Of a DNA stretch of 64,000 nucleotides, positions 10,923-58,008 are shown piece by piece. Position 1 is the stretch's first letter; every line of letters begins with the position of its first letter. The stretch is taken from contig CM041776.1 of the NCBI GenBank assembly GCA_023374045.1, positions 281,603,999 to 281,667,998 on the forward strand, read 5' to 3'. Below the pieces are notes generated by a model that made no database searches, had not been told where the DNA came from, and saw only the letters and a program-made list of their open reading frames with translations. The stretch comes from Limonium bicolor (Eukaryota > Streptophyta > Magnoliopsida > Caryophyllales > Plumbaginaceae). The translations under genes and the position numbers were made by a program.

Positions 10923-11330
10923 GTCCGCCCACAGCTGGATCGGACGCTGGGTCGGACAAGGCCTGAGTAACGAAAATAAACTTTCTGGAACCGTCCGACC
11001 CAGAGCCGTGAGTCGGACGTGGGTCGGACGGGCCTTGAGAAACGACGGTAATTCTTTCTGGAATGGTCCGACCCAGGGCCGTGAGTCGGACATGGGTCGG
11101 ACAGGCAAAAATTTTCTTCAACGAAGTTTCTGACTTCGTCCGACCCAGAGGTTGGGTCGGACGTGGGTCGGACATAGCTTGGATGACGAAACTGAAACCT
11201 TCTGGAATGGTCCGACCCAGAGGTGTATGGGTCGGACGGAATAGTGCTGGGTCGGACGGGAGTAATTTCAGAGGACGAAAACCTACTGGAATGGTCCGAC
11301 CCAGGGTTGGGTCGGACGGTGGGTCGGACG
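10923..11330. repeat. Six-unit 72-bp palindromic array (GTCCGACCCA/TGGGTCGGAC) in LARD 5' LTR
   Basis: Units start at 10923, 10993, 11066, 11138, 11210 and 11294, giving spacings of 70, 73, 72, 72 and 84. Each unit opens with GTCCGACCCA and has one or two inverted arms TGGGTCGGAC within about 35 bp. A non-palindromic spacer follows, often ending in TTCTGGAATG. The array is copied in the 3' LTR at 21074-21482. It could form serial hairpins in the transcript or present phased protein sites. The function is unknown. Confidence 0.92.
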
Positions 11331-12474
11331 GCCCAAACACTTACAAAAAAAAATTTTTTATAACATGACTATAGTAATCATATGTATGTATATGTATATG
11401 CTATACACAAGTATGCATATATAGTAGTAATACACCATTAATGAAGTAATAATGGTAAGAAAGTAAGCAAATGTGTAAGGAAGCAAGTTTATAAGTAGTA
11501 AGGAAAGAATGGTTTTATAACCAAGTAAGAAAGTAATGGAGTAGTAAGTATGCATTGAAAGTATCAATGAAGGAGTAAGTAGATCAATAATAGATCATTG
11601 ATCATACTACTTCGTGTATGTATAGGAATTCCATAGTTGAGCTCCAAAGGAACCGGTAGTACCCTGCGACGGTGAACGGTATGATTTCTTCATGCTCTGT
11701 ATCCTAACCTGGTTACCCCGATTTGTGTGCTTATGTGATCACCAATAAGATAAATGCACGAATCGGATTTATATTGCACTTAATTGTGTTGAACTATTGT
11801 TCTTGTTGTATCTTCTTGAACAATTAGTTTGTATAATTCATGAAATGAATGAATGGAAATGAGAAGTATGTGTAAGTATTGTGTACTTGCGTATTGTATG
11901 TATGTATGGAAATGAAGTATTGACTTCTACTAATTCCTAACATTCTAACTCCTAACTTGAGTAATGAGTAAATGGAATGAGTAGAAGTCCGATATAGTTT
12001 CGGCCACGCGTGAGGATAAGGAAACACAAGAGGTTGGATCCGAATCCTGGCTGTAATCTCTTCCATGGACCAATTCCCTTGAATGGGTAGCATCCTGGAT
12101 TAGTGGGCCACCCTAAAGCCCGGTGGTGGGATGTAGTAATCCCTGCCCGGAGGTCATACCGACTTGACTGGAAGTAAAGTATAAGAAGTAAGTATTGTAT
12201 GTGTATTGGTTTGACTATTGTAAGTCATTGACCGGAAGTAAAAGAGTATCGAACACCCGATTAACCCGGGTGTGTAATGAAGCTAACTGGACCTTGTATG
12301 TATTGGAGAATTGTATCTCCGTATTGCGTATTGGATATGTAATGGGTATGTATTGCGTATGTGCAACCCGAAGGATGGTAGGTAAGTATCGGTTGACTTG
12401 TATTGTCTTCCAAGCATGTATTGTACTGTGCGTATGTATGTATACTTGTGTAGTATTGTAGTATCGTGAATGAA

Positions 12475-12533
12475 AGCATGTATGTATGTATGTATGAATG
12501 TATGTATGTATGAATGTATGTATTCAAATGAAT
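12475..12533. repeat. GTAT/GAAT microsatellite in LARD LTR
   Basis: An imperfect ATGT/ATGA tetranucleotide run. The corresponding run in the 3' LTR (about 22636-22668) is shorter, so it has changed length since insertion. Confidence 0.8.
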
Positions 12534-13082
12534 TGCATGTATTCGACCAAATGGTCGGCGTACCCTCGCTAGTACGCGGGGTATGCGGTTATCATATTCA
12601 GCGAAAGCTGACCCCCTCGGGGGAACATTTTTAGTGTGCAGGTACCCGGAGCGAGTACGGTCGAGGTAAGAGACCGGTGGCGCGCCTTGTAATTAGAAGC
12701 ATTTAGTTTGTGAGGAATGGGTAGCAGCTTGACTCCTAGTGAGTATGTATGAATTTGGGAGAAGTATGTATGATTTGGAACCTAGTAAACTCGGTATGTG
12801 TAGTGTATTATTGTATTGAATTGGAGCATTGCATTGGATGGAGTATTGTATCGAATGGAGCATTGTAGTACTCAGTAAGTAATGGGAGTATGTATTGTAT
12901 TTGTGTAGTACTCGGATATTCCGGTCCATCAGACCGATGCTGTATGTAGTAGTAGCCTTGTTGGTCACGTGGGTGACTAACGGCAGTGTATCACCCACCG
13001 TTGAGTATGTAAGTATCCGCGTGAATCGTACTGTATAAGGAGATTGGACGGTAATGACGGTATTAGCGGTAAGGGTGTTACA

Positions 13083-13115
13083 AAAAGTGGTATCAGAGCG
13101 AAGTATCGCTCTGAT
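13083..13115 (+). other. LARD primer binding site with overlapping hairpin
   Basis: TGGTATCAGAGC at 13088-13099 is complementary to the 3' end of plant initiator tRNA-Met and lies 5 bases after the LTR end. It overlaps a perfect 10-bp inverted repeat: ATCAGAGCGA (13092-13101), loop AGTA, TCGCTCTGAT (13106-13115). Most of the primer site could therefore be paired in the RNA by a segment that resembles the tRNA 3' end. Confidence 0.9.
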
Positions 13116-16100
13116 GACTGGAAGTACCGAGTTTAGGAAATACCGAGTTAGGATTTATAAGCTTAGGGCTAAGGGCTGAGTGTTAGCATCAGAGATATGC
13201 TAGTTAGGAACTCCCGGTGAGTACCGGATACCTACAATACCAGACCCGCCCTCCACAAATCCTTTTGTATAACTTGGGAAAGTACGCCAGAGAGAGTGAA
13301 GTCCTCTCATACTCGGGGAAACCCGATCTGGCAGTTGTGAAACAATCACGCAGTAAACAAGAACTGACATATAGTAGATTCCAAGAACTGGAAGTCCCGG
13401 AGATGGATCCCGGTTGAACACACCCGCACTTAATAGCGGTAGGATGAGCACTCCAACCACGAGGAGGCAGCAACTTACAACAGCATGGGGCGACGTGCTT
13501 AGCAGTCGCGGAACCTAGCTAGTCAACCAACAACAGGAAAGAAGCACTAACCGTACAACGGAATGAAAAAGGGAGCAGTAACGAAACCCGAGACACAAGT
13601 CTACGGGATAGTAATACTTGAATAATACCACCAACGGTATGCTAGCTGACAAAGGACATAGTCGGGAGCGGTTAACTCCAAAACCACGACGCCATTAAGG
13701 TTGCAATACCTGGCCAATATAGCTCAGACAACTACAAGAACAACCATGAGATACAATCTAATAGGACTACAAGCGTAGTACCTAAACAAGGAAGGCTCAG
13801 TAACCACCACAAATGTGTGGGAGCGAGCCACAAGGAACGACACTAGACCAAATAGAACGGGAACCTCCAAGGAGGGGAGAAGTACCGAGATCTACGACAG
13901 CCATGTCTAGACCACCAAGAAGCTACCTAAAGGGTCGAGTATACCAAATGTAGATCAATAAGATCAAGGGAAGAGTCAACAAGACTATCAAATGCGAGTG
14001 GAAACCATACCGTGATCGGTATAGGATTACTCAAAAACCACCAGTACCACGCACTTGCCACGGCAAGTGCAGTAAGAACATGAGTATGTGAAGGAGCACT
14101 AGCTCGTCACAAGTACATAGTAATGTACGGTGACCGTAACGAAACAACTACAGGATCACACATCCAAACGACTAGGAGTATGGAACCTTGGAAAGGCCTA
14201 ACGGCCCGACCACTGTATCTAGAATATACCGGTCAGCGAGAAGCTAGACTTGGTCAAGACCTCAAACATGGCTATGCCATGAGAGACTTCTTTAACACCG
14301 AACCATATTCTAAAACCCAAAAATTTTCCTTTCAAACCACAACCTTTCTTTTAAACCTTGGATTTTAAAACCAAACCAACAGAATTACGGTGAGTATCAT
14401 AGAATGATACAAGAGGAGTTGGCAACAGAATACTTCACCTAGGCGTGTGACGAACACTACGAGTGTACCCATTACGGGATGTGGGACAACCGCACTCCGA
14501 AGGAGCTTGTGGGCCTGACATATAGTTGGGTAAGTGGTAACGTATCAACATGGTACCCCACGTATGTATACATGTAGTGACACACGGGAAGTAGTCAACT
14601 CCGTTCTACGGACCATCAGGGAGTTCAAATCAGAACAGCTGGACCCCTCAGACAACCAAGTATAAAGGAATTCAGAGAATCCATCTGAAAGTAAGAATCA
14701 GAATTAGGAAGTGCAAAGAGCACAGACTAGTAAGTATAGACATTGGACATGTCTGAAGGACATCAAATAAATACATGATAGCTGGGAAGTATACCCAGCC
14801 CCCACACAGTAAGCCAATCGCCTAACGTGAACACCACAATGCTCAACAAACGGGACAGAACTCCCAATAGCAACCCCAAGACTACCGCAAGGTATAATCC
14901 ACCATCAAAGAGAATATTAAACCTAGTCTTAAGCACTAGGAGCAAGTATAAACAATCTACCCAAGAACGGGAGGCGCTATAACCCTAAAGGGAATAGCTC
15001 AAATACAATACCACAAGGCGGTATAGTAGACACAACATATCATAAACATTAACCGGATGTAGCGACATACCTAACAACACCCAGGAGCAATCCTCGAAGG
15101 GTGTCTGAGTTAACACCAATCGAACAAAGCATCATGATAAGAGCACGGCAACCAGAACGAATACTCAGTTAGGACACCGAAGGGATTTCACTTAACAAGA
15201 AATACCCTCATCCACCGAAAGGCACTGATTAGCATCAGCTTGCCTAAAGGGCCTCCTATGAACGGAAGCGTGATGTCACGACTTACCATGGAGCCCAGTA
15301 AATACCTCCAACCTATGGGGTACACAAAGAATGGAAACGTGTATAAGCAGCTTGCAAAGGGCATAGCTCGCCGCAATAAGGCTTGAAAGCCACGTAGCAA
15401 CTACGTTATGTAAACTTGAACGGTTGCAAAACCGGCACCATTTACTAACAAGACTTGCAAGAAATGCTGTCATATATGACAAGAAATCAACAACTAGACC
15501 ATCAATTCAAACCCAACGTCCTGAGTGACTTGGAGTATTGGTCAACTCAGTATCACTGTCACTAGTGCACCAGTCTAGCATACAGTTGACAAGCTTTTAA
15601 TCACCTTCATGCCTTCTGTAGCAATGGTACACAGAGGCATAAGAATCATGATAATGCCAACATTGGCCTAGTCCCCACTTGGACACTACCAGAAACCCAA
15701 GGGAAGGTACCCCTCGTTGACCAAAGACCACCAATGTGGTGAAGATGTGAACCCTTAGAAAGGCTTCCATCCATTATAACAGTAAAGCCTACACTTATAA
15801 ATATTGCCAAGGGGCGATGGAATAAGGAAATGAGATTTCCAAACCATTACGACTTAAGGAGTAAGCATACTCCATATGCACTCAAGCATGTGGTGAACCA
15901 TTGTATAAACACCAACATGATAAACCTCGTCATGAGACCTATGAGTGGAGACAACCCCTCAACAAGAACCTTCACTTGTTAGTGATAGAATACCCTCCAA
16001 TTGGAGAACGGGACCAGAAAACCCTCGAAGTTTCTTGGGATGTCCCGGTGATGTACATACAAGTAAAACCCACGCTAGAGCCTATAACCAATGCTCAGCA

Positions 16101-18880: not shown

Positions 18881-21800
18881 TGAAATACCCCAAACTTAAA
18901 TATAGTGATTAAGATAATTCTAATCCTTATTTAAGAGCCTAATAATGCGTAAGTAATATTAGTAAGGAAAAATAAACCCAAAAGAAAGAAAGAAACGCTT
19001 AAAAAGCGAAAAACGCTAAGTAAGCGTTAAATAACCAAAAGAGGTGCGAGACCTCGGTTAGAGTATTATATGGATCCCAAAGGTTTAATAAGACCTAAAT
19101 AATATATGGGAACAACTCCCGAAGAAAACGGATCCGAATAATGTATTAAAACGCTAATAGAGCTTTAACGCACGTTTTTCGAGAAGACCCGAAAACGTGA
19201 TTTTAAATGGTCAAACGAACCCGTAAAAATTATAAGTCATTAAATAATAGTTATTAAGCATTTATGGAAGTTTAATGACCAATAAAAATAAAGAAACGAG
19301 AAAATTCCGGAAAACGGGCCCGGTTAGTAAGTAGTATCAAAACCGGGTAAAATAACGAGCGTTTTCTGTAAAAGACGAAAAACGCTCCAACTAGCAGTAA
19401 TGTGTGGGGCCGATTTTTAAGGGGTCAAATAACCCTCTCACACACATGTAACTAGCTAGATTAATGTAGAGTCAAAAAGCAAAAAGGTGGGAAAGTAAAA
19501 AGCACTCACACACTGTCTCTCCCCTCATTTCTCTCTTCTCTCTCCTTCCCCCCTTCCCTCTCCATCGATTTTGCCCTCTCTCTCTTCTGGTTGGGCGATT
19601 TCAAAGCCCCAAAGGAAGCTCCCATGGCTTCCTCACTCTCTTCCTCATGCTCTAGCTCCATTTGAGCTCCAAATGTAAAATAAATTACATATTTGTAATC
19701 CCCTCATCATCTACATTTCTACCTTTTCAAAATTGAAAAGGATGAGTTTCATCTCCATGGGTTTTCCCCATTTGAAGAGAAAAGCACACCATTGTGAAGC
19801 TTGGAGTCTCCTCTTTCCAACAAGGTAAAAATCCCCATGAAAGACCTCACTTTTCTCCATCTCTTGGTATGGCCGATTTTTGGTCTCTCTTACCTTGTTT
19901 TTCCTCTTGTTTTGGAGCTTTGCTTCAACCCTCCAATGGTGGTGAGAACACCTTCTTGAACCAAGGGCTAAGACCCCTCCTAAATCACTCCAAAGGTAAA
20001 CCCTAGAATTTGTATTTTTGACACTTCAATGAATTAGTGTTAATTTAAGGGTTAGTAGTTTAATTACACTTGTTTTGTGTGCTTTGGGTGATGGGAATGG
20101 AGTTTGGCAACTCCATTCCCCATATGACCGATTTTGGTGCAAGGAAGAAAGAAGAAGTGGAAAAGGAATGAAGGAATTATAAGCTCAAGGTAAGAGCTCC
20201 TTCCTAATGTAAATTCTATTGCATTAGAGTAATGGGAATGGGTAAATATTTAAAGAACCCAAAACCTTGTACTAGTATTGAGGATTGTGAAATTTGAGTA
20301 TTTAAGAGCGAGTATTTGAATTGAAGGCTTTGGAGCCAAATAAATGGTGTATGTGTATTAGTATTGCTATTTGAGGAAGTAATGGTGTATTGATATTGTG
20401 GTTGAAGAAATGTTGGTGTATTGAATTTTTGTATGAACCTTATGTGCTGGTAGGACCCATGTTGGGTGTGGCTAGCTTTAGGTTGAATTTGATGAGAGGA
20501 TGTGTAATTGAGGAAGTAAGGAAAGTAGGTGAACTATGGCGAAAATTTAGTAGGAATTGTGCACTGAGAATGACTTGGTGAGTGGGAGAACCAAGGTGTG
20601 TATTGGGGATAGTAGAGATGTTTAATGACCATTGGAATGGTAATTGTAGTATGAGAAATAAGAAGTGTAAAATCTGTAGCAAAGTGTATAAGATACATTG
20701 GAGAAGTTAGGAAAATTCAATGTGCAAGAATTGGTAAAGGAATGTTGGACTTGGGTATAGATATTGTAATTGCTTGGAAATGTATTTAAGATGCTAAGAG
20801 TGGCATTGGATGAGGAGGTATTGGAGTATAAGAGTAGAGGGAAAAATCTGTAGCATAAGGTATAAGGGAAGAAACAATGGGAGTGTGAGTTGAAACTTGG
20901 GAAATTGAGTGTATAAATAAGCATAGGATTGTGTAATGTATTAAGGAATGAATTAGCATGATTTAGAGCGTCTAAATAGTACTAAAACATGTTAGGATGC
21001 ATGTAGGAAGAATAGGGAAGCAATGGGTGAAATTGGGAAAAGAAAACAAGGCCTGTAGCAAGTTTCTGCTACTGTCCGACCCACAGCTGGATCGGACGCT
21101 GGGTCGGACAAGGCCTGAGTAACGAAAATAAACTTTCTGGAACCGTCCGACCAGAGCCGTGAGTCGGACGTGGGTCGGACGGGCCTTGAGAAACGACGGT
21201 AATTCTTTCTGGAATGGTCCGACCCAGGGCCGTGAGTCGGACATGGGTCGGACAGGCAAAAATTTTCTTCAACGAAGTTTCTGACTTCGTCCGACCCAGA
21301 GGTTGGGTCGGACGTGGGTCGGACATAGCTTGGATGACGAAACTGAAACCTTCTGGAATGGTCCGACCCAGAGGTGTATGGGTCGGACGGAATAGTGCTG
21401 GGTCGGACGGGAGTAATTTCAGAGGACGAAAACCTACTGGAATGGTCCGACCCAGGGTTGGGTCGGACGGTGGGTCGGACGGCCCAAACACTTACAAAAA
21501 AAAATTTTTATAACATGACTATAGTAATCATATGTATGTATATGTATATGCCTATACACAAGTATGCATATATAAGTAGTAATACACCATTAATGAAGTA
21601 ATAATGGTAAGAAAGTAAGCAAATGTGTAAGGAAGCAAGTTTATTAAGTAGTAAAGGAAAGAATGGTTTTATAACCAAGTAAGAAAGTAATGGAGTAGTA
21701 AGTATGCATTGAAAGTATCAATGAAGGAGTAAGTAGATCAATAATAGATCATTGATCATACTACTTCGTGTATGTATAGGAATTCCATAGTTGAGCTCCA

Positions 21801-23238
21801 AAGGAACCGGTAGTACCCTGCGACGGTGAACGGTTTGATTTCTTCATGCTCTATATCCTAACCTGGTTACCCCGATTTGTGTGCTTATGTGATCACCAAT
21901 AAGATAAATGCACGAATCGGATTTATATTACACTTAATTGTGTTTGAACTACTTGTTCTTGTTGTATCTTCTTGAACAATTAGTTTGTATAATTCATGAA
22001 ATGAATGAATGGAAATGAGAAGTATGTGTAAGTATTGTGTACTTGCGTATTGTATGTATGTATGGAAATGAAGTATTGACTTCTACTAATTCCTAACATT
22101 CTAACTCCTAACTTGAGTAATGAGTAAATGGAATGAGTAGAAGTCCGATATAGTTTCGGCCACGCGTGAGGATAAGGAAACACAAGAGGTTGGATCCGAA
22201 TCCTGGCTGTAATCTCTTCCATGGACCAATTCCCTTGAATGGGTAGCCTCCTGGATTAGTGGGCCACCCTAAAGCCCGGTGGTGGGATGTAGTAATCCCT
22301 GCCCGGAGGTCATACCGACTTGACTGGAAGTAAAGTATGTAAGAAGTAAGTATTGTATGTGTATTGGTCTTGACTATTGTAAGTCATTGACCGGAAGTAA
22401 AAGAGTATCGAACACCCGATTAACCCGGGTGTGTAATGAAGCTAACTGGACCTTTGTATGTATTGGAGAATTGTATCTCCGTATTGCGTATTGGATATGT
22501 AATGGGTATGTATTGCGTATGTGCAACCCGAAGGATGGTAGGTAAGTATCGGTTGACTTGTATTGTCTTCCAAGCATGTATTGTACTGTGCGTGTGTATG
22601 TATACTTGGTAGTATTGTAGTATCGTGAATGAAAGCATGTATGTATGTATGTATGAATGTATGTATTGCAAAATGAATTGCATGTATTCGACCAAATGGT
22701 CGGCGTACCCTCGCTAGTACGCGGGGTATGCGGTTATCATATTCAGCGAAAGCTGACCCCCTCGGGGGAACATTTTTAGTGTGCAGGTACCCGGAGCGAG
22801 TACGGTCGAGGTAAGAGACCGGTGGCGCGCCTTGTAATTAGAAGCATTTAGTTTGTGAGGAATGGGTAGCAGCTTGACTCCTAGTGAGTATGTATGAATT
22901 TGGGAGAAGTACTGTACTGACCTTGGAACCTAGTAAACTCGGTATGTGTAGTGTATTATTTTGTATTGAATTATGGAGCATTGCATTGGATGGAGTATTG
23001 TATCGAATGGAGCATTGTAGTACTCAGTAAGTAATGGGAGTATGTATTGTATTTGTGTAGTACTCGGATATTCCGGTCCATCAGACCGATGCTGTATGTA
23101 GTAGTAGCCTTGTTGGTCACGTGGGTGACTAACGGCAGTGTATCACCCACCGTTGAGTATGTAAGTATCCGCTGCGTGAATCTGTACTGTATAAGGAGAT
23201 TGGACGGTAATGACGGTATTAGCGGTAAGGGTGTTACA
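18881..23238 (+). repeat. LARD 3' LTR, 4358 bp
   Basis: Direct copy of 8735-13082 with mostly small insertions and deletions. Examples are a TG addition in the GTTTAA(TG)ACC stretch near 19274 and a shorter microsatellite. The first array unit reads GTCCGACCC here but GTCCGCCC in the 5' LTR. It ends at 23238, followed by the AAATC duplication. Confidence 0.95.
21074..21482. repeat. Six-unit 72-bp palindromic array in LARD 3' LTR
   Basis: This is the counterpart of 10923-11330, with the same six units and arms. Only point or single-base indel differences are seen, so the array has stayed stable since insertion. Confidence 0.92.
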
Positions 23239-23243
23239 AAATC

Positions 23244-24024: not shown

Positions 24025-25410
24025 TGTTGTGAAAATGGTAAACTATGCAAGTTTCATATAGGGTAAAGTGTACCCAATCATAGTAGTATACAAAAGTGTC
24101 GTTCTGCTAGGAAATTGAGAGACTAATCTGGTGAGTTCAGGTATCTAGTTAATAAAAGCAGTTAAATGAAAGGGGGTTTAGCCAGAGGCAAGCTTGATAT
24201 TTTGGTTTAAAGAAAAATTACAAGAACAATCAAATTAAAATGGTGTGTTAATTTGTTGGATGGAAATGCGCTCTAGAAAGGTGGAAGCACCCAAATACTC
24301 CCCAAACTTAGCTATAATTCTAATTTGCTCTAGTTGTCTGTCAAGATTAAATTAGTAGCTTCACTAAAATCCTAGATAAAGCTATCCCTTAATTAGCTCA
24401 ATAAATCCTTCCATTAGGTTAGGTATAAATCACCAATTAGCATTAGACACTAATCTTAGCAATAGCAATAGAAAATACCAACTAATTGAAGAGGGCAAAT
24501 TCTAGGGTTTATCTCTCTCTTAGCCAAATCCCTAATTCACAAAATTATGGAATTAAGAGAAACCATAAATGTCCATAGTGGATCAATCTAGCATATTCGA
24601 TAAATTAAAGAGATAAAACAACTATAGTAAGATAATTAGGTACTACAAGCATGTTTGGGAGATTTGGGGTCAAACCCCCATCTAGAGCACAAAATGAGTC
24701 TACTCAAGCATTGAGACTACAAAGAAGAGAGAGAGAGAGAGGAGAGAGAAATAGCCATTAATGATGGTGGTTGAGCTTTGAATGAGGTGAGTAAGTCCAT
24801 TTTTCTTCTTCTCTTCCCTTCTCTTCTTTTTTCTCCTCTATTGTCGCCTCTGTCGAATGGAGAAAACGGGGCTGAAACGCGGGCGTGAAAAGAATGAGAA
24901 TTAATTTTCTCTTTTTGCTGCATTTTGACGAGTTGGGGCGCACCTCTGTAGGTGGCCCGGGTTTGTAAACCGGTACACAAACCCGGACCATGTTAAAATT
25001 GTGCCAGAGAGTTGCATAAGTATGTGGTCCGGGTTTGTAAACAAGTACACAAACCCGGACCATGCCAAAAAGAGGGCAGAAACTTCCAGCGGGATTGGTC
25101 TGGGTTTGTAAACCTGGACACAAACCCAAACCAGGGTAAAAATGAATCAGAATGCCCTTATTTTCTTAGTTTGGTCCCGTCTTGGTCTTGACTCTCGTGG
25201 CACACATCCCCAAGTCTCGTATAAGCATCCAAACAGCTCCTTTTCATCATTCGTTAGTGCTCCAGTGATCTTTTACCTAAATTATATCCAAAAGTGTGTA
25301 AATTTACTAATGATTATTAAATGCTCTATAAAGTGGTGAAAATAGGTTATAATCCAAGTAAAATGTAGGTGAATATAAACCTAATAGATGCATATTTTCA
25401 CCACTTATCA
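24025..25410 (-). repeat. E1 5' LTR
   Basis: About 1386 bp, the partner of 1212-2580. Its TGATAAGTGG end abuts the CTAGG duplication at 25411-25415 and its CA end abuts the primer site. Visible substitutions against the 3' LTR are frequent, for example over a dozen in the 120 bp nearest the primer site. Confidence 0.93.
24954..25131. repeat. Three phased GGTCCGG inverted-repeat modules in E1 5' LTR
   Basis: Left arms begin at 24954, 25026 and 25097, so spacing is 72 and 71 bp. Each pairs GG(T/C)C(C/T)GGGTTTGTAAAC with ACAAACCCGGACC or a close variant. This copy keeps the third module, which is partly deleted in the 3' LTR. Confidence 0.88.
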
Positions 25411-30094: not shown

Positions 30095-31054
30095 GGATGC
30101 GTTCGCCTCACCTTTTTTGTGTATTTTTTGACAGCATAAATGTACAGCATATGCTATTTTGGACTCCTTCATTTGTTTTTGTTGTTCGCCTAAAACAGCA
30201 TAAATGTCAGCATAAATGACAGCATAAATGTCAGCATAAATGCCCGCAGCAAATGCTACTTTTTCGTTTTCGTGCTTTCACTTCCGTTTCTTTACTCACT
30301 TCATAATGCAATTACTGTGACTATTGATTTAAAAAAAAAGAAATTTTTTACAAGTTACTTTATTTATTACAAATTACATAATGCTTTAAATAATTTATAA
30401 AAAATAGTACTACATCTTTAGCCAAATTTACAAAAAATCACATTTATAATACAAATCTATAATATATTATTTGTAATACCACATAGATTAATAAAATTAA
30501 AAAAACAAATAAATATACACACTTGTTGATATATAAATTAAAATAGTATATAGAAATATGAATGCATATAAATTTATTAACGTATATAAAAATATTATAT
30601 ATTATTAAAAGTTATAATTTCACTAAATAAATTCACATAACATTATCAGAAAATTTGAAACGTTTTTTCTCTTTTTTATGCTTTTATATTTGTAAGAATT
30701 ACAAAATTTAGATAATAAAAATATATTGTTTAGGAGTTACAAGTTTTGCTTAAATAATAGAAATAAAATTTTTATTGTTTGTGAATTTTTTTATTTATTT
30801 TTACTAACAAAATAAAGTTACGTAGTGTAATATAATAAATTATAATTGTAATACGAAAACGGTAAACACACTACATATAATTAACTGAACCAAACATGCT
30901 GCATATATGCTGCACTGCCAAACAGCAGTTTTCAAAACAGCTGCATTTATGCCAGCACATTCCTGCCAGCAAATATGCTGCATTTATGCCAGCGCATTCC
31001 TACTGTCAATTATGCTGCATTTATGCTGCCAAAACAGCCATGCCGAACAGAGCC
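30095..31054. mobile_element. Tourist/PIF-type MITE, copy 1
   Basis: Ends GGATGCGTTCGCC and the inverse of GCCGAACAGAGCC, flanked by TAA (30092-30094 and 31055-31057). Both subterminal regions carry repeats of AGCATAAATG(T/C)CAGC in opposite orientation. The middle is AT-rich and non-coding. A very similar 960-bp copy sits at 41752-42711 with a different 3-bp flank. Confidence 0.78.
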
Positions 31055-31319
31055 TAATACTCGTCCCCGTGTTCCATTCCAACTAAAATCTTCTTATATC
31101 ACCGATTAACCATCATTAAATTTATACTTTTCTTAGATTATTACTGTCTCAAAGGTTGCTTGTAGCTGCTACTTCTCAAAGGTCTGAATCCTCGATTCAT
31201 ATTACCGTGATCAAGAAGAAGATTGAACAACGGTGAAAATCAAGTTTTTGTAATTTGTTAGTGTTTTCTCAATATATTTTGACCAGTAAAAAATGAAAAG
31301 TTGATGATTTTAGAACGAT

Positions 31320-34688: not shown

Positions 34689-34967
34689 TATTAATTGCTT
34701 AATGAACTTTTTTCATATTTTTATTCACAGTCCTATTTTACATTTGTCTACGGCAAATTCTACAGATTTACATAATTCACAATTGTACTGTGTTTTACTT
34801 TTAAGGGCCATTGTATCAAATAAATATAAGACGCATGGCTCGGTCCTTTGGGCTCTGCGCGTCGCATCTTCAGGCCCACCGATATACATAATAACAGTCC
34901 AACCACAACATGGACCAACAACCATCTACGCTAAAAAGTGTAAAAAGATTTTTAAAAACATAAAAAT

Positions 34968-35039
34968 TCCGTTGCCGGGACTTGAACCCGGGTCTCTCGG
35001 GTGAGAGCCGAGTATCCTGACCAACTAGACTACAACGGA
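34968..35039 (-). tRNA. tRNA-Glu (anticodon CTC)
   Basis: The 72-bp minus-strand sequence begins TCCGTTG and ends CAACGGA, which pair as a perfect 7-bp acceptor stem. The anticodon stem CTCGG/CCGAG encloses the 7-base loop CTCTCAC with anticodon CTC. The B box GGTTCAAGTCC and a D arm with GGTCAGGA are present. A T run (ATTTTTA) follows directly on the minus strand and would serve as the RNA polymerase III stop. It decodes GAG. All visible arms are intact, so it is probably functional. No intron. Confidence 0.96.
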
Positions 35040-35250
35040 AGTTGAAATAAAAGTAACTTATTTCTACAGCCTCTGCTTTCGTTTTCACATAAGGGGATTT
35101 GCAGAACACGCGGCTCAAGGTATCACGACTCCGACCGAGGGACATGAATAAACCACGTCAGATACTCAAGCGAAACTATGGGTGCATATCGTGAAAGAAT
35201 CTCTAAGAGTATACACAAATCTGCAGAAGTAAATATAGTAGTATAAGATA

Positions 35251-41751: not shown

Positions 41752-42711
41752 GGATTTATGTGCATTTTTTGACAGTATAAATATACAGCATATGCTGTTT
41801 TGGACTCTTTTATTTGTTTTTGTTGTTCGCTTAAAACAGCATAAATGTCAGCATAAATGATAGCATAAATGCCAGCATAAATGCCCGCAGCAAATGATAC
41901 TTTTTCGTTTTCGTGCTTTCACTTCCGTTTCTTTACTCACTTCATAATGCAATTACTGTGACTATTGATTTAAAAAAAAAGAATTTTTTACAAGTTACTT
42001 TATTAATTACAAATTACATAATGCTTTAAATAATTTATAAAAAAATAGTACTACATCTTTAGCCAAATTTACCAAAAGTCACATTTATAATACAAATCTA
42101 TAATATATTATTTGTAATACCACATAGATTAATAAAATTAAAAAAACGAATAAATATACACACTTGTTGATATATAAATTAAAATATTAAAATAGTATAT
42201 AGAAATATGAATGCATATAAATTTATTAACATACAAAGTTACAAAAATATTATATATTATTAAAAGTTATAATTTCACTAAATAAATTCACATAACATTA
42301 TCAGAAAATTTTAAACGTTTTTTCTCTTTTTTTACGTTTTTATATTTGTAAGAATTATAAAATTTAAATAATAAAAATATATTGTTTAGGAGTTACAAGT
42401 TTTGCTTAAATAATAGAAATAAAAATTTTATTGTTTGTGAATTTTTTTTATTTATTTTTACTAACAAAATAAAGTTATGTAGTGTAATATAATAAATTAT
42501 AATTGTAATACGAAAACGGTAAACGCACTACATATAACTAACTTAACCAAACATGCTGCATATATGCTGCACTGCCAAACAGCAGTTTTCAAAACAGCTG
42601 CATTTATGCCAGCACATTCCTGCCAGCAAATATGCTGCATTTATGCCAGCGCATTTCTGCTGCCAAATATGCTGCATTTATGCTGCCAAAACAGCCATGC
42701 CGAACAGAGCC
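41752..42711. mobile_element. Tourist/PIF-type MITE, copy 2
   Basis: Closely similar to 30095-31054 along its full length. The ends are followed on both sides by TAT (41749-41751, 42712-42714) rather than the TAA of copy 1, so the two copies look like independent insertions. Frames in the GCTGCATTTATGCC subterminal repeats (42553-42794) are artefacts. Confidence 0.76.
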
Positions 42712-42926
42712 TATGTCCTCGAGTCCCATTCTCCCTCATTTTTCTTCCTACAAAGATTACTCCATTTATTTCAATAAATAGATTGATCATCTAACATGAC
42801 TCTTCACCAACGAGATCGAGCACCACTTGGTCCCTATAGATACAGATCTTCCACCCCACTTCAAAAATTTACCTAGGTTCATAGAGGCATTCTCTAGATT
42901 TAAGCTTTAAACTTTTTACTTCTAAG

Positions 42927-49622: not shown

Positions 49623-49851
49623 GGAGCTGATAAGCGAGGAATTTACATATATTTCTTTCCATTATTTGTTTATTTAATTATGAGATTCATACCAAATTTC
49701 TCTGCTTAGTGATTAATTATTACCTTGTGGTTTTTATGCTAGAACAAGTAAAACCGCTGAAGAAAAGGCCTAGAAATACATGCCGAGAGCTTAAGGATCA
49801 AGATGAGACCAAACGGGAGCAAAAAAGAGCTTTTTGGTGGATTTCAGGGTT

Positions 49852-49960
49852 GGTCCAGGTCTTGCTCCGAACAATTATACCCGGACCAACCCCGAGTATA
49901 ACATACTGCCTATTTAATGGTGTGGCCCGGGTTTATGTGTTAGGACACATTCCTAGACCA
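49852..49960. repeat. Phased GGTCC/GGACC modules in E2 LTR
   Basis: A first module starts at 49852 (GGTCCAGG, with CCCGGACC at 49880-49887). A second starts at 49924 (GGCCCGGGTTTATG, with AGGACAC and CTAGACC to 49960). The spacing is 72 bp. The arms are more decayed than in E1. Confidence 0.7.
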
Positions 49961-50204
49961 AAAGAACCATGCACGTGTTAAAGAAAAAAATGAAATGGGC
50001 CACATGCATGAGGGACGTGAAGACTCGACACCTATTTTGGAACCGAGAGGGGTGGAGTTGTCGCATGTGAAGGAAAAGTAATACAAAGAAAAAAACAATT
50101 GTTGCCGCAAGAGGAGGGACGTGAACATGCCCATGCAGAGAAGAATTATTGTAATTTTGATTGGACACACAACAATGAGAAAAAGAAACCCTAGCCACAG
50201 ACTT

Positions 50205-50219
50205 GGGGGGGGGGGGGGG
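50205..50219 (+). repeat. Run of 15 G
   Basis: Uninterrupted homopolymer in the E2 LTR, just upstream of the nested solo LTR. Its exact length may be a sequencing uncertainty. Confidence 0.9.
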
Positions 50220-50248
50220 ACCGTGAGCAACATCCTGAAGACCGGAAC

Positions 50249-52881
50249 TGAAATACCCAGGAAATTCCAAGCTAGGAATAATATAGTATATGGTATGGGT
50301 AATATGTCTGAGGTTAGTTAAGGTGGCCCAGGGAATTAGACGACATTCTTTCCGGAATTAATCTTTCTCCTTAAAGTGTTTATGAATATTGGTAACGTTT
50401 TGCCTTATTTGATTTCGCTATATTTCGGATATTATACGATATAGTATTACTTCACCCTCCTAACTTCTCTAAGTTATTTAAACTTCGAAGTACTATTCTA
50501 GAATATTCTTTCCAACTTATTTTAAATACTCAGAGTTTGATTTCAGTTTGGCTTTCTCTTGTGGTTAATTGATTTCAAGAGTTCAAATTCTATTTGACTA
50601 CTCAAAGATATTATTTGTTAACTCTCCTTATTCTTCTCTCAGTAACTATATTACTGGCATTTTCATTTATCCTTTTAACGAGATTGTTCTCCTTCCTTTG
50701 TTAAACTTTTAGACTATTTACTACATATCTACTCATTTCTAAATTACTTCCTTCCAAATAAATATTTATTAATTGACTTCTTGATATTGTTTCTCATTTT
50801 TGATTTATTCCTTCCTGAATTACATCACCAATCTTCTCTTACTAATCTTCCTAACTTAACGAGATCTATCCTTTGGAAATATTTTAATTACCGAGAGTTG
50901 GAACTCTTTCTTAATTATTTTATTTGTGTTTCCTTTTAACATAAATCTTTAATTAGTTTATTCCTTTTCATTATATAAACAATTCTATTTAAAGGTTGGT
51001 TTTCTTCACTATTCTCCATCCTCAATACGCCGTTCTTGCGCTTATCCTCTGCCTAATATTTTCACGCTCTTCCTCTTCAAACCCTTGGTGAATTCTCGTT
51101 AGTTCCGTCGAGGTCTAATAAATTCCCTGGTGTCCCGTTGGTAGATTGTCAGGTAATGTATTCTACCTAGTTGCTTAGTTATCTACTCGTTGTTCGATGA
51201 ATTCTGATTGTTAATTTTGGTTACCTAGACGCCGATTACATCGACGAGTGCTATCAATAGTCCGGAGCAGTTGGGCTCTTGAGGGATTTGGTTGTTCCAG
51301 GTAAATTCTATGCTCAATGAATTTGACTGTTGTTTTACAAAATATTGGAAAAGGGTTTCGCTGTGCCTTTATGTCGATTGTGTTTTGGAAATTGGGAATT
51401 GTTCCCACGATTTGGAATTGAGTAATTGGTTTGTGCTGTGGATTTTGGTTCTGGATTTTGGGAGTCTTTCACAGGTTGTATTCTATTGTTTGGGAGCCCA
51501 TAGGTGCTCCCCATGATTGTTAATATTTGCGCTGCACACATTGTTGCAGTTAAGCCCTTTGATCTACTCTATGTTACTGCTGTCTCATTGAGGATGTGCA
51601 CACTTAAGGACTTAGGGTGAGGTGGTTGTTTGACGATCCCATAGGTGACTGTCCTGGAATTGTTGTTTGGGGTCCCACAGGTGACCCCGTGTTTGGATTT
51701 ATGGTTATCTCCTGTTGAAAGCTCCCTACTGCGGTTTCGGTGTTGATATGTTTTCTGGAAATTCATCAACTGTTCAATAAAACCTTCTCACCTGATTATT
51801 AACGGCAAATGAGTTCTAAAATGTATTTTACAGGTTGAGATGGAATTTACTCAGTTTTTCTGATTTGTGCGATCCTTTCTGTGTTTTGTCTATGCTTTAT
51901 GATCGCAGGTATGGATGACTAAGTGTGGGGATCGGGACGGCGAATCACATAGTTTAGGGATTACGAATTAATAAGGCTATGTTTTGAATTTCAATGGTTA
52001 AGAGATGTTGTGTTGTTCCCAAGCTTTACACATTGAATATTTATTTTGGCTTCCGCATAACTTGAGTTAACCTTTGTTTTTGGTGTTATTTAGTTCATTA
52101 GCCTGAGCACCCATGGGAATTGGGTGTGGCGGTAATGCCCTGGATGTTTTGAAGTCCGCTGCTGTTTTGAGATTACGTTTATTCGAGTATTTCCTATTGG
52201 TAATTATTGGCAGTTTATGAATCGGTTTTATTAAGTTTGAGCTTTGTACTGAGTACTTATTAATGACCTTATCCGCTCAAGAGTTTCTCATATTGTTGTT
52301 GTGTTTTATATAAGTGTTTCTAATGGTTTTTGGTTTCTGTTTACGCGTTGGAAACTGCACTTAAGGACCTGTCCGAATGTCCGTCCGGACATCCATGTTC
52401 GGACAGGCCCCGAAAGATTTCAAAGGTTTTCATTGTTTGGCTGTGTCCGAACATCTGTCCGAACTTCAAGTTCGGACAGCATGCGAGGACGGGTCCAGCT
52501 TGCAAGTCTCGACCTATGTCCGAACTTGCAAGTTCGGACCAATGTTCGGACCACGTAAGGTTTTTTTTTTTCGAAGTTTTGAAACTCGACTTGTGTCCGA
52601 ACTTCGAAGTCCGGACACAAGTTCGGACCTTGTCGCTTCCCAGTTTTCTAACTCTCGACTTGTGTCCGAACATCAATGTCCGGACACAAGTTCGGACAGA
52701 TGGTTTTCTGCAGTCTGTTTTCTTCGGCTTGTGTCCGAACTTACCATGTCTGGACACAAGTTTGGACCAACTCTGTTTTGCACTTTTAGGACTCATTTGA
52801 AGTCCGTTTTTGATCCCGTTTGCGCCGTTAGATTTGTATTTTCATAAGCTATATTTTGAGGCAAAAATCCAGGGTGCTACA
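50249..52881 (+). mobile_element. Solo long LTR, LARD/chromovirus-like, nested in E2
   Basis: It starts TGAAATACCCAGG and ends AGGGTGCTACA, with target duplication GGAAC (50244-50248, 52882-52886). 2633 bp. The termini closely match those of the LARD LTR (TGAAATACCC and GGTGTTACA), so the two belong to related families, but the body differs. A six-unit palindromic array occupies 52371-52768, about 2.1 kb from the LTR start. The array in the LARD LTR is also about 2.2 kb from its start. Confidence 0.92.
52371..52768. repeat. Six-unit 72-bp palindromic array (GTCCGAACTT/AAGTTCGGAC) in solo LTR
   Basis: Units start at about 52371, 52444, 52518, 52593, 52662 and 52731, giving spacings of 73, 74, 75, 69 and 69. 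Arms are TGTCCGAACTT and its inverse AAGTTCGGAC(A/C), with some TCCGGACA variants. Spacers are T-rich, often ending CTCGACTTGTG. Because the arms lack stop codons, frames of about 150 residues stay open on both strands here; they are not genes. Confidence 0.92.
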
Positions 52882-53663
52882 GGAACAACAGAGCAGATTG
52901 GGATTTCATCATGAGTATTGCTACACATATTTGATAGCGTATTCTCTTTCTTTTATTGTTGTTTCCATTTTCTTCATGTCTGAGTAGAGGATTGAATCTT
53001 GGTTTATTATTTAACCCTAGTTTCTAATTTCTCTTTCCTGATGTGTTAAAGATTAATTTTATACAAATTGTAGTTTTATTCCTTGTTTACTTGTAGAATT
53101 ATCCTTTGACTTATAATTACTTGAGTTTATCTAGTTTGATTGCTTACAAGTGAGAACTGCGGCATATAATAGACTACAGGAATACTACTAGTAAAACTTG
53201 AGATGAAATTTCCTCGGTATTAGCTAACTACAAACCAGATGACATATACATTACAAGTTAATTAATAAATTCATAACGAGAGTTAAGATTTAGTAATTGC
53301 TAGTAAGAATCTATTTTAAGGGAGACCGGAAGTGGATTAATTTAGATCTGAGGTTGCAATCTAGAATTAGAAAACATATAGGTTGGAAAATTGAAGAACT
53401 AGTGGAAAGTAGTAAACCAGGATTCTTTGTTTAGAATTGTTTAAGAAATCAATATTTTTGTTTTTCATGTTTTAGTTTATTTATTTCTGCAACAAAAACC
53501 ATAAATCTAATGTTGTAAATTTCTAAATTTATTTGTTTGATATTAGATAAAGACTCAAAGTAGACACTGCCTCCTTGGTTCGATAACCTTTGAGAATATC
53601 TTAGGAAAACTTGCTACAAAAGACCGGTACACTTGTCATATTAGGTTTACCTCGTACAGGAGC

Positions 53664-53955
53664 TAATCTCACCACTGAATATAGCAAGCTCGAGTTTGAG
53701 CCTGGTGGTTGCAATGGGTTTCTTTAGAGACCCGTCAACAAAACCTAGTTTGTTCTTTGCATCAAGTGCAATGCTCATTTGCATTTTCCAGCAAGGAAAT
53801 CCGACTCAATCGAATTGATTGGTGAGCATTAAACTTGGGTGCTCTGAACTTCCAAGGTACAACGGGTATCCATTCTCAATAACAATGTTTGAGTTGCTGC
53901 TTGATCTCTCTAATGTATTCTTTCTATTCTTCAGTGATCCATAATCGATAGCCAT
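53664..53955 (-). pseudogene. Ty1/copia gag, N-terminal part, cut off by E2
   Basis: The minus-strand start codon at 53955 opens a frame with NGYPLYLGSSEHPS, then an in-frame TGA. The typical copia gag segment follows (MQMSIALDAKNKLGFVDGS, RLKLELAIFSGEIS). It reaches the GGAGC target site of the E2 solo LTR and resumes at 49622, which shows what was interrupted. A degraded tRNA-iMet-like primer site (54124-54138, minus) lies about 170 bp upstream. Confidence 0.82.
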
Positions 53956-54639
53956 GATTCACACGAGATAAATGGTCTGCGGTGTTGATCGAAGGTAAAA
54001 GTGGGTGAAGGTCGATTGAAGCTCAATATAATTGAAGGCCAAAAACTGGGTGAAGATCGATCGAGGGTGAACCCCAAATGAAGGGAAAAGGTGAAAAAAC
54101 ATAATGATTTATAGCGTAGGACCGGTGCTCGTAGACCATGATAAGTTCCTCCGATTCTTGAGTAAACACCAACACATATTTCAACAAGAAGATGCCAAAA
54201 TCTTTACTCGAGAAAAAGAATAGGAACAGAGGGCTTGAGGGCCTTAGATTGAGAAGAGAGAAAAACCAAAGACAAGAACGTACAAACTGTCTTCTTATCC
54301 TAATATAGGACCGCCTAGGTGCAACATAACAACTGAGACAGAAACCATCTCTTAACAGTTCAGTACCAACTAAACGAGTCAACTAGAGTAATTAAGATAT
54401 ATGGGTTGTTGGTTCATGACTTTTAGTTTCTTGTTAGATCAATTTGCCACATGTCCTTGGCTTATTTGCTATTTTTTTGTTGCACCCACTATCTCTCTCA
54501 CAAATGTTTAAAATCCAATAGCTACATTTGAAAATGGTGGGAGATTAATTCCGATAGAATAGATCCATAAGGAAATAAATAACTAATAGTGTTAACAACT
54601 AATAGAGGTTATAACAGGTGCTCCTCCTCTCATATTTTG
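53956..54639. other. Probable remains of the copia leader and 5' LTR
   Basis: The minus-strand sequence at 54124-54138 resembles TGGTATCAGAGCACC with several changes. It is followed at higher coordinates by TGATAAG-like sequence that could be the LTR edge. The far end of the LTR cannot be placed. A frame at 54023-54382 is not convincing. Confidence 0.4.
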
Positions 54640-55916
54640 ATGGCATTACTAGGGATGGCAATACCCAATTGGTATCCGATAACCCTATTCACCCGTGGGT
54701 GAAAAATGGGTTAAAACCCATAGTAAGTGAGTGGAAACCGGGTGACGGGTTTGGGTTAGGTTCGGATGACAATTTTTCATCCATCACCTGATCAATCACC
54801 CGTTTAAAACGCGACCCATCACCCATTTACTAGAAATGTATTTTTATGACCAAAGAAGACCTTAGGCATTAGAAAAAAATCTGCTTTAGTGCGACCATCC
54901 ATTTCATTTTTCTTCATTCCTATCTGCTCAGCAGCGATGCGAGACTCGAGAGCAAGCTCATCTCCTTACCTCAAACCCTAGATTCACCCAACGACATTTT
55001 TGGCATTCTTCCTCCTCTTATCCCATTTCGTCTCTACAAGTAGGAGCGCTGTGTGAGGTTGGAGTCTATTTAGAAGTTAAACTTCCAAAAGAAAAGGACA
55101 AGATTCTGAAGCAGCCTTTAATAGTCCCTAGCTTTAGAAGATTATTTACATTTGTCTATGGTAAGTTGATAATTAAAGTGGATGGTTCTATTTGTGAATT
55201 TTTCATGGCTACAACTTCAATTGCAAAGTTAATTCATCTGACATATCCTTCTTCATGATACTCACTCTCTATTAATAATTTTGCTAGTACTCATTACTTC
55301 ATCTACCATTGTTTCTCATAAATAAGGTTTGCCTACCTTTTGTTGTTCTGAATTCACTATGGAGATTGAGATATCTGTCTTTAATTTTTCTCTCAGGTGG
55401 CCTGAAGAAGAATGGGCATTTTCATGTATTAATTGGTGTGTGGCCATTATGTACCTAAGTTTCTTGCAGTATAACCTTTCTTCTCAGTGGCGGCAATCTT
55501 AGTGCTTCTGTTTGCTTATAAGTCTCTTCTAATTAAGATTCCTGTTCAGGATCCTAACAAAATTTCCGGTGTCAATATAATGTGTCCTTTTTGGGTAGCC
55601 ACTCAGAAAAGAATGAAGATGTTTTGAGGATAGAGTCAAGTCAATGAAAAGGAAAGAAGTAAAAAAGTTGTCTCTTGATTGTAAAACAGGGTGGAACTCA
55701 ACCTTTTTTTATGCTTAAAGGTGTCTTGTCTTATAAGGATGTGCTTGTTAGTATGAATGGGAGCTAACTTTATATCGTTTAACAATTTTGATAATATTTG
55801 TAATTATAATTTATCCACCTTTAACCTTTGATTCTTTTTCAATCTCTCTTTTATAGGAGATAAAGATGAGATGAATTTAATGATGGCTATTTATCATATC
55901 ATCGCTCGTCATGAGG
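54640..55916 (+). pseudogene. hAT transposon relic with transposase fragment
   Basis: The region opens with ACTAGGGATGGCAATACCC and GGGTTTGGGTTAGGTTCGG text, common at hAT ends in plants. At 55644-55760 the plus strand encodes KKLSLDCKT(G)WNSTF, then after a frameshift MLKGVLSYKDVL. This matches the conserved TRWNST(Y/F)xML segment of hAT transposases. No other transposase domain is readable, and there is no intact frame. The element end is not defined. Confidence 0.6.
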
Positions 55917-56107
55917 TATAATGCTTGTATTATCATGATATAATTAAGTTACATTGGTGCCCTTAGTTTCAAGTTTTTAATTGACATATAAAGTGAAATA
56001 TAAATATGCACATGCTATAATTACTGCCCAAGGATTATTCTATAATTTATGTATGAGCAGGGCCGGCTCCCAGCCCGTGCAAGCTGGGCAACAGAACCAG
56101 ACCCCTT

Positions 56108-56590
56108 ATATTATTTTTTTTTATAATTGACTGGTTACGAACCAGTTTACAAAAGCAATACTGTGGCAGAGTGCCGTTCTTGCTAAAAGAAACTAGTAAC
56201 TAGAAGCACTGGTCCAGACTTGAAATGCTAGATTACATATAGATAAGTGAAAATAAATTCCTTGAGGAGAAGATGATATGAAACGGGAGATGACAGTCTT
56301 GGCGGCACCATTCGATGCTTAATCTTTTGACCAGTCTGCAACTTCAGACCAATCAGAGGAGATATTTTCGAAGATTAGCCTATTGCGCTGTTTCCAGATT
56401 GCCCAAAGAGTATGTAACAGAGACGACATCCACAACTTGTTGTTTTTACAATTATGCACCCCGCTCCATGATTGGAAGAGAGCTAGAGGAGACTGTGGGA
56501 AAACAAATGACATCCCCCACCAGTCTAAAAGCTGTATCCAGAGAACTCTTGTGGCACTGCTGCAGACTATATATTGTGAGTGGTTGGAAC
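56108..56590 (-). pseudogene. LINE ORF2 C-terminal fragment
   Basis: The minus-strand frame from 56590 to 56319 reads LLDWWGMSF, LLHTLWAIWKQRNRLIFEN and closes with SDWSEVADWSKD. This is the conserved end of plant L1 ORF2 (zf-RVT region). An A run (complement of 56108-56127) downstream fits the 3' tail. The fragment is cut at 56591 by the E3 LTR, so the rest may lie beyond E3 outside the window. Confidence 0.7.
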
Positions 56591-58008
56591 TGTTGTAATT
56601 AAAACAAAAGAAAAGAAATTAAAACTCAAAATAATAGTCGGGCTGCAAACAAATCCCGGTCGTAGTAGTATAGTAAAGTGTAAGCGACCAGGGTCAAACC
56701 GTGGGACTTATAGCGAAATAAAATAGTACCTAAGCTTGTCACAAGAGGGGGGAATTAATGACTTGTTTTTGTAAAATAAAACCAATAGATAAGATTAACT
56801 GAGTTGAAGATAAATTAAACGGAACTCCGGGTTCAGGTTTTATAATCTGATTAATTATGCTATCTCACCGGTTATTATAATAGTTTGGTTAAAATTCCTG
56901 TTATTATCTTAAGGTCCGATGAAAACTCATAAGAACTACTGTTTACCAGCAAATGCAAGGTCCGATGAAAACTCAAGCAAGCACTAGTAAACGGGAATTA
57001 AGTGTGAGGAATTATATTCTGCAAATGAGTACTAACTTATCTGATGAAATAAAGTTTCCTACAGATTTACGGCTTAATTAACCTATCTGTTCTTCACCGA
57101 TCAGATTAAAACCGATTAGTAAAGCTTTTAATAAATCGATGACTTTAATATTAAAAAAGGCGAGAGATGAACTTTAATCAAAACAAATTTCTTTTTAACC
57201 GGTAGAAATATAGATTACATAATTAAACATTTACGGCCAAACCTTCGCCCGGAGTAAATCCTCTTAGCCCAACATAATTAAAAGACAGAAATAAGAAATA
57301 AAAGAAATCATCTGGAAATAATTAATTCAGCTCCACTATCTTGACTGCTATAATTTGGGCAGAGGTTGGACAGAACAACGGTATGGAAATGGAATGTTTT
57401 TATGGAATGAGGCGTTGTATGGAATTTATGTGGATATATGTGGATGAGATGTATGATTTTTGGAGAGTTTATGTATTTTTATAGAGGAAAAATAGCATAA
57501 GTTTGGGGTGCAATGTGATATAGATGAATGGAGGGTTGTAGGTGTATTTATAGAAGAATATAGGGTAAATGTAAGGGGTGGTAAGCGGGTGGTGTTTAAC
57601 TTGTGAAGATAGATTAATTTTATCCTCTTCACACGCTGATGTTGTCCTCTGTTCGCTGGCAAGACACGTGTGTCCGGACCACCATGTCGATTTTTCTATC
57701 TGGTGCCTGGCGTGTGTTCGTCCGGACCAGGTGATCCGGACACTGGTCCGGACCAAGGGTCTTTTGCCTCTAAATGTTCGTTTTTAGCTCCGATTTGATC
57801 CCTGTTTTCGCCTACGCGTTCGTCTCTTCTCTTCTCTCTTCGTTTACACTTTGCACCTGCTTGGTTTTCCTCATGTTTAACCAATAAATTTGTGAGATAA
57901 TCAATAAAACTCACTAAGGAAAACTAACCAACGTGAAGAAATGAGCAAGAAAGTGCTAATATATATAGTGAATACACCTATAAAACATGCTCATTTGGAC
58001 ACTTATCA
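56591..58008 (-). repeat. E3 3' LTR
   Basis: About 1418 bp. On the element strand it begins TGATAAGTGTCC and ends in TACAACA. The position of the TG...CA edges was set by analogy with E1 (TGTTGT... on the plus strand) and by the polypurine tract. Text near 56653 (CCCGGTCGTAGTAGTATA) matches the same place in the E1 LTRs. It holds GGTCCGGACC modules at 57671-57754. Confidence 0.82.
57671..57754. repeat. Phased TCCGGA palindromes in E3 LTR
   Basis: TGTCCGGACC (57671-57680), CGTCCGGACC (57719-57728), ATCCGGACAC (about 57734) and GGTCCGGACC (57745-57754). The first and last are 74 bp apart. These sit about 250-340 bp from the LTR start, matching the place of the modules in E1 and E2. Confidence 0.78.

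Follow-up and report, generated by a model that had tools for sequence, protein, structure and literature searches.

Three-word palindromic modules with a GTCCG half-site in the long terminal repeats of four retrotransposon families of a Limonium bicolor window

Of 13 Ty1/copia Sireviruses described with palindromic repeated motifs in their long terminal repeats (LTRs), 12 have a motif with a CGG-CCG core (Bousios et al. 2010, PMC2829016). Within the LTR, the motifs form clusters that start at 200-400 bp, on the upstream side of the TATA box, and make up CpG islands in most elements; their authors called them Sirevirus-specific within Ty1/copia. CGGAC, the complement of GTCCG, is present in five of the 13 consensus motifs (HOPIE, Usier, OPIE-2, PREM-2 and Osr9), and the motif of a Citrus Sirevirus has TCCG and CGGA in the order described below (PMC2829016). 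According to PMC10760457, hairpins of maize are concentrated in Copia LTRs, Ty3 elements mostly have no clear peak, and small RNAs are in excess over the palindrome clusters of maize Sireviruses. Here, we analyzed 64,000 nucleotides of the Limonium bicolor contig CM041776.1 (the window; GC 37%), which read as plant DNA, and we describe GTCCG-bearing palindromic modules in the LTRs of four retrotransposon families found there. A sequence-only reading of the window knew of no named module of this type; the Sirevirus motifs show this to be wrong in kind.

By LTR pairing and target-site duplications in the flanks, six LTR copies were sorted into four families (Table 1), namely a large retrotransposon derivative (LARD), two Athila-type elements (E1 and E3) and a solo LTR. 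The sequence-only reading had counted five LTR types. The additional type, E2, may be the other LTR of E1, where the step from 2141 to 2213 fits the 72-bp spacing ascribed to it but lies beyond the span that this reading stated. Its core claim of TCCG-centred inverted repeats stands for every family, strong GTCCG/CGGAC palindromes being present in all six LTR copies. Of the 21 non-overlapping stems that score at least 14 across the 64 kb, 18 lie inside the LTR arrays, and two of the remaining three are a single stem present in both LARD LTRs. With a score of at least 13, the two LARD LTRs hold 6 and 7 stems, the solo LTR 5, the E1 LTRs 3 and 2 and the E3 LTR 1, compared to shuffle means of 0-0.05 and to 2 stems in 18 LTR-free 2-kb tiles (LTR limits are approximate in this comparison). 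TCCG or CGGA is present in 21 of these 24 LTR stems, the other three being a LARD stem without the core, found twice, and a decayed E1 module. Since paired LTRs are not independent of each other, these six copies amount to four independent cases, one per family.

Then, we searched for triads, that is, any 10-bp word plus two further copies of which one or two are reversed, without naming the core and with same-sense spacing of 10-13 bp only. This search gave 15 sites in 64 kb, all within LTR arrays, whereas 40 shuffles averaged 0.075 sites and never exceeded 1. TCCG/CGGA is intact in 14 of the 15 sites, and the remaining one (25098) is a decayed E1 module, in a TCTG form. The palindromes are real, far above chance and nearly limited to LTRs.

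Each module consists of three copies of one 10-bp word, made of GTCCG followed by five family-specific bases (words in Table 1), usually with one forward word and then two reverse words on the + strand. The arms thus differ between families in their last five bases on a shared core, with a similar layout in two lineages, as the sequence-only reading had it. In 13 of 15 module instances, neighbouring words of the same sense are separated by 11-12 bp; the other two have 20 (LARD) and 14 (first solo module). This count omits the LARD 3' LTR, which is a copy, and the first two modules in either E1 LTR, whose middle words are decayed, and includes both E1 third modules even though these are copies. 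The half-site offsets of the E3 module (Table 1) recur in solo units 3-5, and the outer offset of 27 is common to E1, E3 and four of the six solo units. Offsets in the LARD 5' array are looser, with inner values of 16-21 and outer values of 28-41, where the fifth module accounts for the 41 and the other five have 28-30. In the E1 5' LTR, the third module has all three words in decayed form, and the first two modules have a decayed middle word.

Like the Sirevirus motifs (PMC2829016), the window modules are palindromic, multi-copy and CpG-rich, with a CCG/CGG core plus family-specific bases, and GTCCG/CGGAC dyads are found in all four families. The E1 and E3 arrays also start 200-400 bp into the LTR; that of LARD starts at about 2190 of 4348, outside this interval. 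By scoring TATA-like boxes with a simple hand-entered matrix, we found that the two best boxes of E3 (LTR positions 457 and 526) both come after its module, which lies 250-337 bp into the LTR and is probably upstream of the TATA box. The window modules differ from the described motifs in several respects. First, GTCCG-type Sirevirus motifs have CGGAC first and close half-sites, whereas the window modules usually have GTCCG first and half-sites further apart. Second, the window modules have a third word. Third, Sireviruses have at least 8 copies per element, compared to 1-6 modules per LTR here (18 words per LARD LTR, six modules in the solo LTR). Fourth, no unit of about 72 bp is described for Sireviruses in the available sections of that paper. 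Finally, the Sirevirus motifs are carried by Ty1/copia elements, whereas E1 and E3 are presumably Ty3/gypsy-type by their pol matches. LARD and the solo LTR have no pol, and the primer sites and LTR ends of the window elements are Athila-like or of the iMet type. LTRs of Del (Tekay), to which LARD and the solo LTR are provisionally assigned, have a GC-rich variable block inside the LTR as here, and the main text of Cruz et al. 2014 (PMC4029996) reports eudicot elements without a CpG island and mentions no tandem, palindromic or inverted repeats. In titles and abstracts, we recognised no report of such arrays in Athila or Tekay/Del, and our literature searches found neither the three-word arrangement nor its occurrence in Athila or the long-LTR lineage. 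Tnt1-type plant retrotransposons have repeated enhancer boxes, which are tandem, partly palindromic activator sites in U3; these are of another sequence and superfamily and are likened to the window modules by description only. By this comparison, the window modules look Sirevirus-like in layout, in another superfamily and with a different arrangement, and we set them apart from the Sirevirus motifs proper.

We favour, with evenly balanced confidence, the reading that the modules may be cis-regulatory clusters on the promoter side, of the same kind as the repeated motifs of Sireviruses. The shared GTCCG half-site would be read by a host DNA-binding protein, probably a dimer, which would activate LTR transcription. 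Tandem duplication of the unit of about 72 bp would yield more module copies, selection in the transposing lineage would keep the words while the spacers drift, and the CpG-rich stems would attract small RNAs and methylation as a cost. This reading takes up the anatomy and enrichment of the modules, their conservation and the signs that the LARD and E1 arrays grew by tandem duplication. Between units of the LARD 5', solo and E1 5' arrays, module identity is 0.81, 0.81 and 0.85 (shuffled 0.45-0.50), whereas the identity of the true spacers is 0.57, 0.53 and 0.61 (shuffled 0.46-0.47). The CpG observed/expected ratio is 0.93-1.18 in the four arrays and 0.44-0.93 in the rest of the LTRs, with one LTR per family. 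The LARD 5' array spans 409 bp, with a GC content of 57% and a ratio of 1.12, and the solo array 400 bp, with a GC content of 49%; those of E1 (172 bp) and E3 (101 bp) are too short for the CpG-island criterion. The sequence-only reading had proposed the CpG-containing core as a methylation target; the arrays are CpG-rich, and the targeting itself is a prediction.

Several observations count against this reading. The gap between modules and spacers is partly built in, as modules were picked by likeness. In the E1 LTR pair, modules changed as much as the rest (7/104 sites, 0.067, versus 77/1258 sites, 0.061); such equal change after insertion would follow from selection confined to active copies, and equally from no selection. 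Only transitions, two of which fall at CpG, were seen among these 7 module changes, compared to 48 transitions and 29 transversions elsewhere (one-sided probability 0.045). The CpG contrast is weak in part, with a ratio of 0.93 in LARD past the array and 0.89 in the rest of the E3 LTR. The positions of the TATA-like boxes are equivocal: a slightly weaker box precedes the E3 module (LTR position 42), the better-scoring LARD box, TATAAATA, comes about 160 bp ahead of the array, no good-scoring box follows the E1 array (at about 254-458 of the 5' LTR), and the near-palindromic box of the solo LTR reads either way. With three modules and one module, E1 and E3 have fewer than any Sirevirus in the table of PMC2829016. 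A literature search found no protein known to bind GTCCG, and a single protein would leave unexplained why the last five bases agree within families and differ between them. Two candidates for a known site gave no lead. The search for binding of LBD/LOB proteins to TCCGGA gave nothing usable, and two-unit heat-shock elements, which adjoin three of the six LARD 5' modules, are scattered window-wide, with none of the five three-unit sites in arrays.

The strongest rival, although we find it unlikely, is that the modules arose neutrally: a template switch during reverse transcription would have made a palindrome, tandem duplication would have multiplied it, and further template switching would have copy-corrected the arms, with no function needed. 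Repeat arrays of about 70-72 bp are found in three families, E3 having one full module only. Autocorrelation of exact 6-mers peaks at 72 in both LARD and both E1 LTRs, at 69 in the solo LTR and at 46 in E3 (16 matches at lag 46, 5 at lag 74). Among 12 LTR-free tiles, none has its top lag at 69-75 (summed count 199 versus about 190 expected, one tile at twice its expectation). When modules were masked, counts at lags 69-75 dropped from 108 to 44 (LARD 5'), from 70 to 18 (solo) and from 41 to 5 (E1 5'), and 72 left the top five lags; therefore, modules carry most of the period. The mean right-word spacing is 73.2 bp over 12 intervals. Module spacings of 70-73 and 84 in LARD and of 72 and 71 in the E1 5' LTR had been read correctly, and the right-word intervals of the solo LTR are 69-77 bp. 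The 74 given for E3 fails: the distance from 57672 to 57746 joins parts that do not correspond, a lone GTCCGGAC site and the right arm of the one complete module, whereas the left words are 48 bp apart.

Spacers tell how these arrays were made. Four of the five LARD spacers (0.56-0.70, the third being at background) and the E1 pair (0.61) are still alike, compared to 48-58% in the solo LTR and 46-47% in shuffles. Because of this likeness, tandem duplication made at least the LARD and E1 arrays. It is visible in these two, nearly erased in the solo LTR, and accounts for much of the period; the remaining likeness of the spacers counts in favour of a neutral origin. LARD spacers are 35, 36, 35, 36 and 36 bp long, the 84-bp interval being due to the longer interior of the fifth module. 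Neutral drift simulations yielded a spread as narrow as in LARD in 0-45% of cases near LARD spacer identity and a solo-like spread in about 20-85%, depending on the indel rate, so that drift with few indels reproduces the spacer-length spread for some of the rates simulated, and selection acting on the 72-bp interval is possible. Of the selection for architecture proposed by the sequence-only reading, the better conservation of modules than of spacers stands, while selection on the spacing is not shown and tandem duplication is evident. A neutral origin is also consistent with modules being no slower in post-insertion change. It leaves unexplained, however, that the same GTCCG stands at the same word end in a similar three-word layout in four families of two lineages, and modules at 81-85% next to spacers at 53-61% would require correction tracts ending at module edges.

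Somewhat less likely still, in our judgement, is that the modules act as hairpins in the element RNA, in packaging, dimerisation or as a small-RNA trigger. Nine selected modules, three from LARD, two from the solo LTR, three from E1 (two of them identical) and one from E3, fold stably, with z of -3.3 to -6.1, and the small-RNA excess at palindrome clusters of maize Sireviruses (PMC10760457) is in line with such a role. However, every DNA palindrome folds, so that folding is no separate evidence, and one arm has two partners, which leaves the structure not fixed. In the solo stems, covariation is not above shuffles (97/500 reach the observed score). One position is altered on both sides in two of the six solo units, which is also expected from arm conversion under a neutral origin. 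A scan with Rfam for known structured RNA gave a tRNA alone above thresholds.

An improbable alternative is a shared cassette, in which a module with its flank would have moved between Athila and the long-LTR lineage via recombination of co-packaged RNAs, the layouts being alike by common descent rather than by convergence. The right flanks of E3 (57757-57877) and of the solo LTR (52770-52881) are alike (z 4.2, p 0.003) and have a common stretch containing TTTGATCCC, the E1 flank resembles that of E3 (p 0.027), and the shared outer offset of 27 points the same way. However, among the 28 flank pairs tested, the solo right flank matched the opposite flank of E1 as well (z 4.4, p 0.003), and the LARD left flank gave p 0.023 with the E1 right flank. 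Because non-matching flank pairs score as well, chance likeness is the simpler reading. Spacers compared between families are unconvincing too (lowest p 0.005 of 24 tests), and the words differ in their last five bases.

Very improbable is the claim that the spacing was selected to place binding sites on the same side of the helix, seven turns apart. The mean spacing near 73 bp and the even LARD spacers would suit it. Helical phasing is not supported, however: phase coherence at 10.5 bp (0.54) is no different from that at other periods between 10 and 11 (0.49-0.58), and with 10.5 bp per turn the cumulative phase shifts by about half a turn along LARD and is scattered across the solo LTR. Moreover, a period of this kind is absent from E3, and part of the neutral simulations give spreads as narrow as those observed.

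A bolder reading, which we regard as rather unlikely, is that one GTCCG-reading host factor, or an exchangeable cis-module, serves both plant LTR superfamilies, and that unrelated retrotransposons have converged on the three-word module or traded it. The first five bases would then act as a shared key and the last five as a family lock, with families separately activated or silenced. If Ty1/copia Sireviruses and the Ty3/gypsy-type families studied here share one GTCCG module, it would mark a host pathway that many plant retrotransposons need, and would offer a short defined sequence for pulling that pathway out. Such a module would also bear on why elements retain stems that invite small RNAs, and the last five bases, constant within a family and changing between families, are a concrete puzzle.

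LARD is nested within E1. Across 4323 aligned sites, its LTRs show only 9 substitutions, in addition to 60 gapped positions, so its insertion is recent. No stop-to-stop frame of its interior exceeds 162 aa, as in a non-coding element, and an active helper element is likely to exist somewhere in the genome. The 5' LTR is followed by TGGTATCAGAGC and the 3' LTR preceded by AAGGGGGG, which we take to be an iMet primer-binding site and a G-rich polypurine tract, as in a Del/Tekay chromovirus. E1 and E3 match the Pfam models RVT_1 and RT_RNaseH on the minus strand (three of ten translated pieces tested), which we take to be a Ty3/gypsy-type pol. Both have RT/RNase H on the element strand and the LTR start TGATAAG, and an Athila-type primer site was read in E1 only. 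By signatures of this kind we assume that E1 and E3 are Athila, and, by such signatures plus published end motifs, that LARD and the solo LTR are Tekay/Del. According to PMC4029996, these end motifs are TGTAACACCC at the U3 end and a U5 end with GGG at -10 to -8. The LARD end GGGTGTTACA fits the U5 pattern, and the LARD start TGAAATACCC differs from the U3 end. For the solo LTR, the signs of orientation conflict: its LARD-like termini say plus, whereas the minus strand is suggested by its TATA-like box, by where its array lies and by the U3 consensus of Del. The E3 interior extends rightward from 58008, its partner LTR lying beyond the window.

Table 1. LTRs, module arrays and TATA-like boxes of the window (positions in the 64,000-nucleotide stretch)
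Feature	Position	Strand	Details
E1 3' LTR	1212..2580	-	91.8% identity to E1 5' LTR
E1 3' LTR array	2141..2303	-	modules 2141-2174 and 2213-2246, partial third 2282-2303 (two same-sense words, 12 bp apart)
LARD 5' LTR	8735..13082	+	starts TGAAATACCC, ends GGGTGTTACA; iMet-type primer-binding site next; target-site duplication AAATC
LARD 5' array, six modules	10923..11329	+	word GTCCGACCCA, 14/18 words exact; spacing 70/73/72/72/84
LARD 3' LTR	18881..23238	+	polypurine tract just before
LARD 3' array, six modules	21074..21480	+	14/18 words exact; spacing 71/72/72/72/84
LARD 3' LTR TATA-like box TATATAAG	21569..21576	+	about 87 bp past array; intact in 3' LTR only
E1 5' LTR (Athila-type)	24025..25410	-	target-site duplication CCTAG
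E1 5' LTR array	24955..25131	-	modules 24955-24988, 25027-25060 and 25098-25131; word GTCCGGGTTT
Solo LTR	50249..52881	.	TGAAATACCC...GGGTGCTACA; target-site duplication GGAAC
Solo array, six modules	52371..52767	.	word GTCCGAACTT and variants; right-word spacing 73/74/77/69/70
E3 3' LTR (Athila-type)	56591..58008	-	inner boundary is the TGATAAGTG end; outer end inferred from AATTACAACA
E3 TATA-like box TATAAATA	57545..57552	-	LTR position 457, about 120 bp past module
E3 lone GTCCGGAC site	57670..57681	-	not a full module
E3 single full module	57720..57753	-	word GTCCGGACCA; half-site offsets 0/15/27

In protein searches, the best 120 matches each were 52-76% identical and came from several plants; two were labelled Salmonella, probably by contamination. 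Two scans of viral contigs gave no relatives. Among genome contigs, a scan picked up two that look plant-like yet belong to bacterial assemblies (L001, NZ_QPKJ02000021.1, and L002, NZ_JABGCL010000066.1); the assemblies represent different genera, and each is from a CPCC strain. The two contigs are 99.7% identical over 9 kb and carry a plant Athila-like pol, with a 2004-aa open frame in L001, and are probable plant contamination. Neither has an LTR start or primer site of the window type, and these contigs have no bearing on the LTRs; a cluster of five TCCG/CGGA at 6430-6500 of L001 was read and is no palindrome module.

Other features of the window were noted along the way. Each LARD LTR has one 12-bp perfect palindrome (GGGAATGGAGTT and its complement, at 9944-9971 and 20093-20120) without a GTCCG core. 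A strong stem with GGTCC and CGGACC at 49847-49892 lies outside the identified LTRs, about 360 bp before the solo LTR, and may be an LTR remnant. ARAGORN and the Rfam tRNA model place a tRNA-Glu gene at 34966-35040 on the minus strand, in a repeat-rich stretch. The pair 30114-31056 / 41755-42713 was rejected as a fifth LTR family, having no TG...CA ends and one TCCG in each copy. These direct copies of about 950 bp are 94.9% identical, with tandem CAGCATAAATG motifs towards one end and GCTGCATTTATGC repeats towards the other, and look like a non-autonomous DNA transposon with subterminal repeats.

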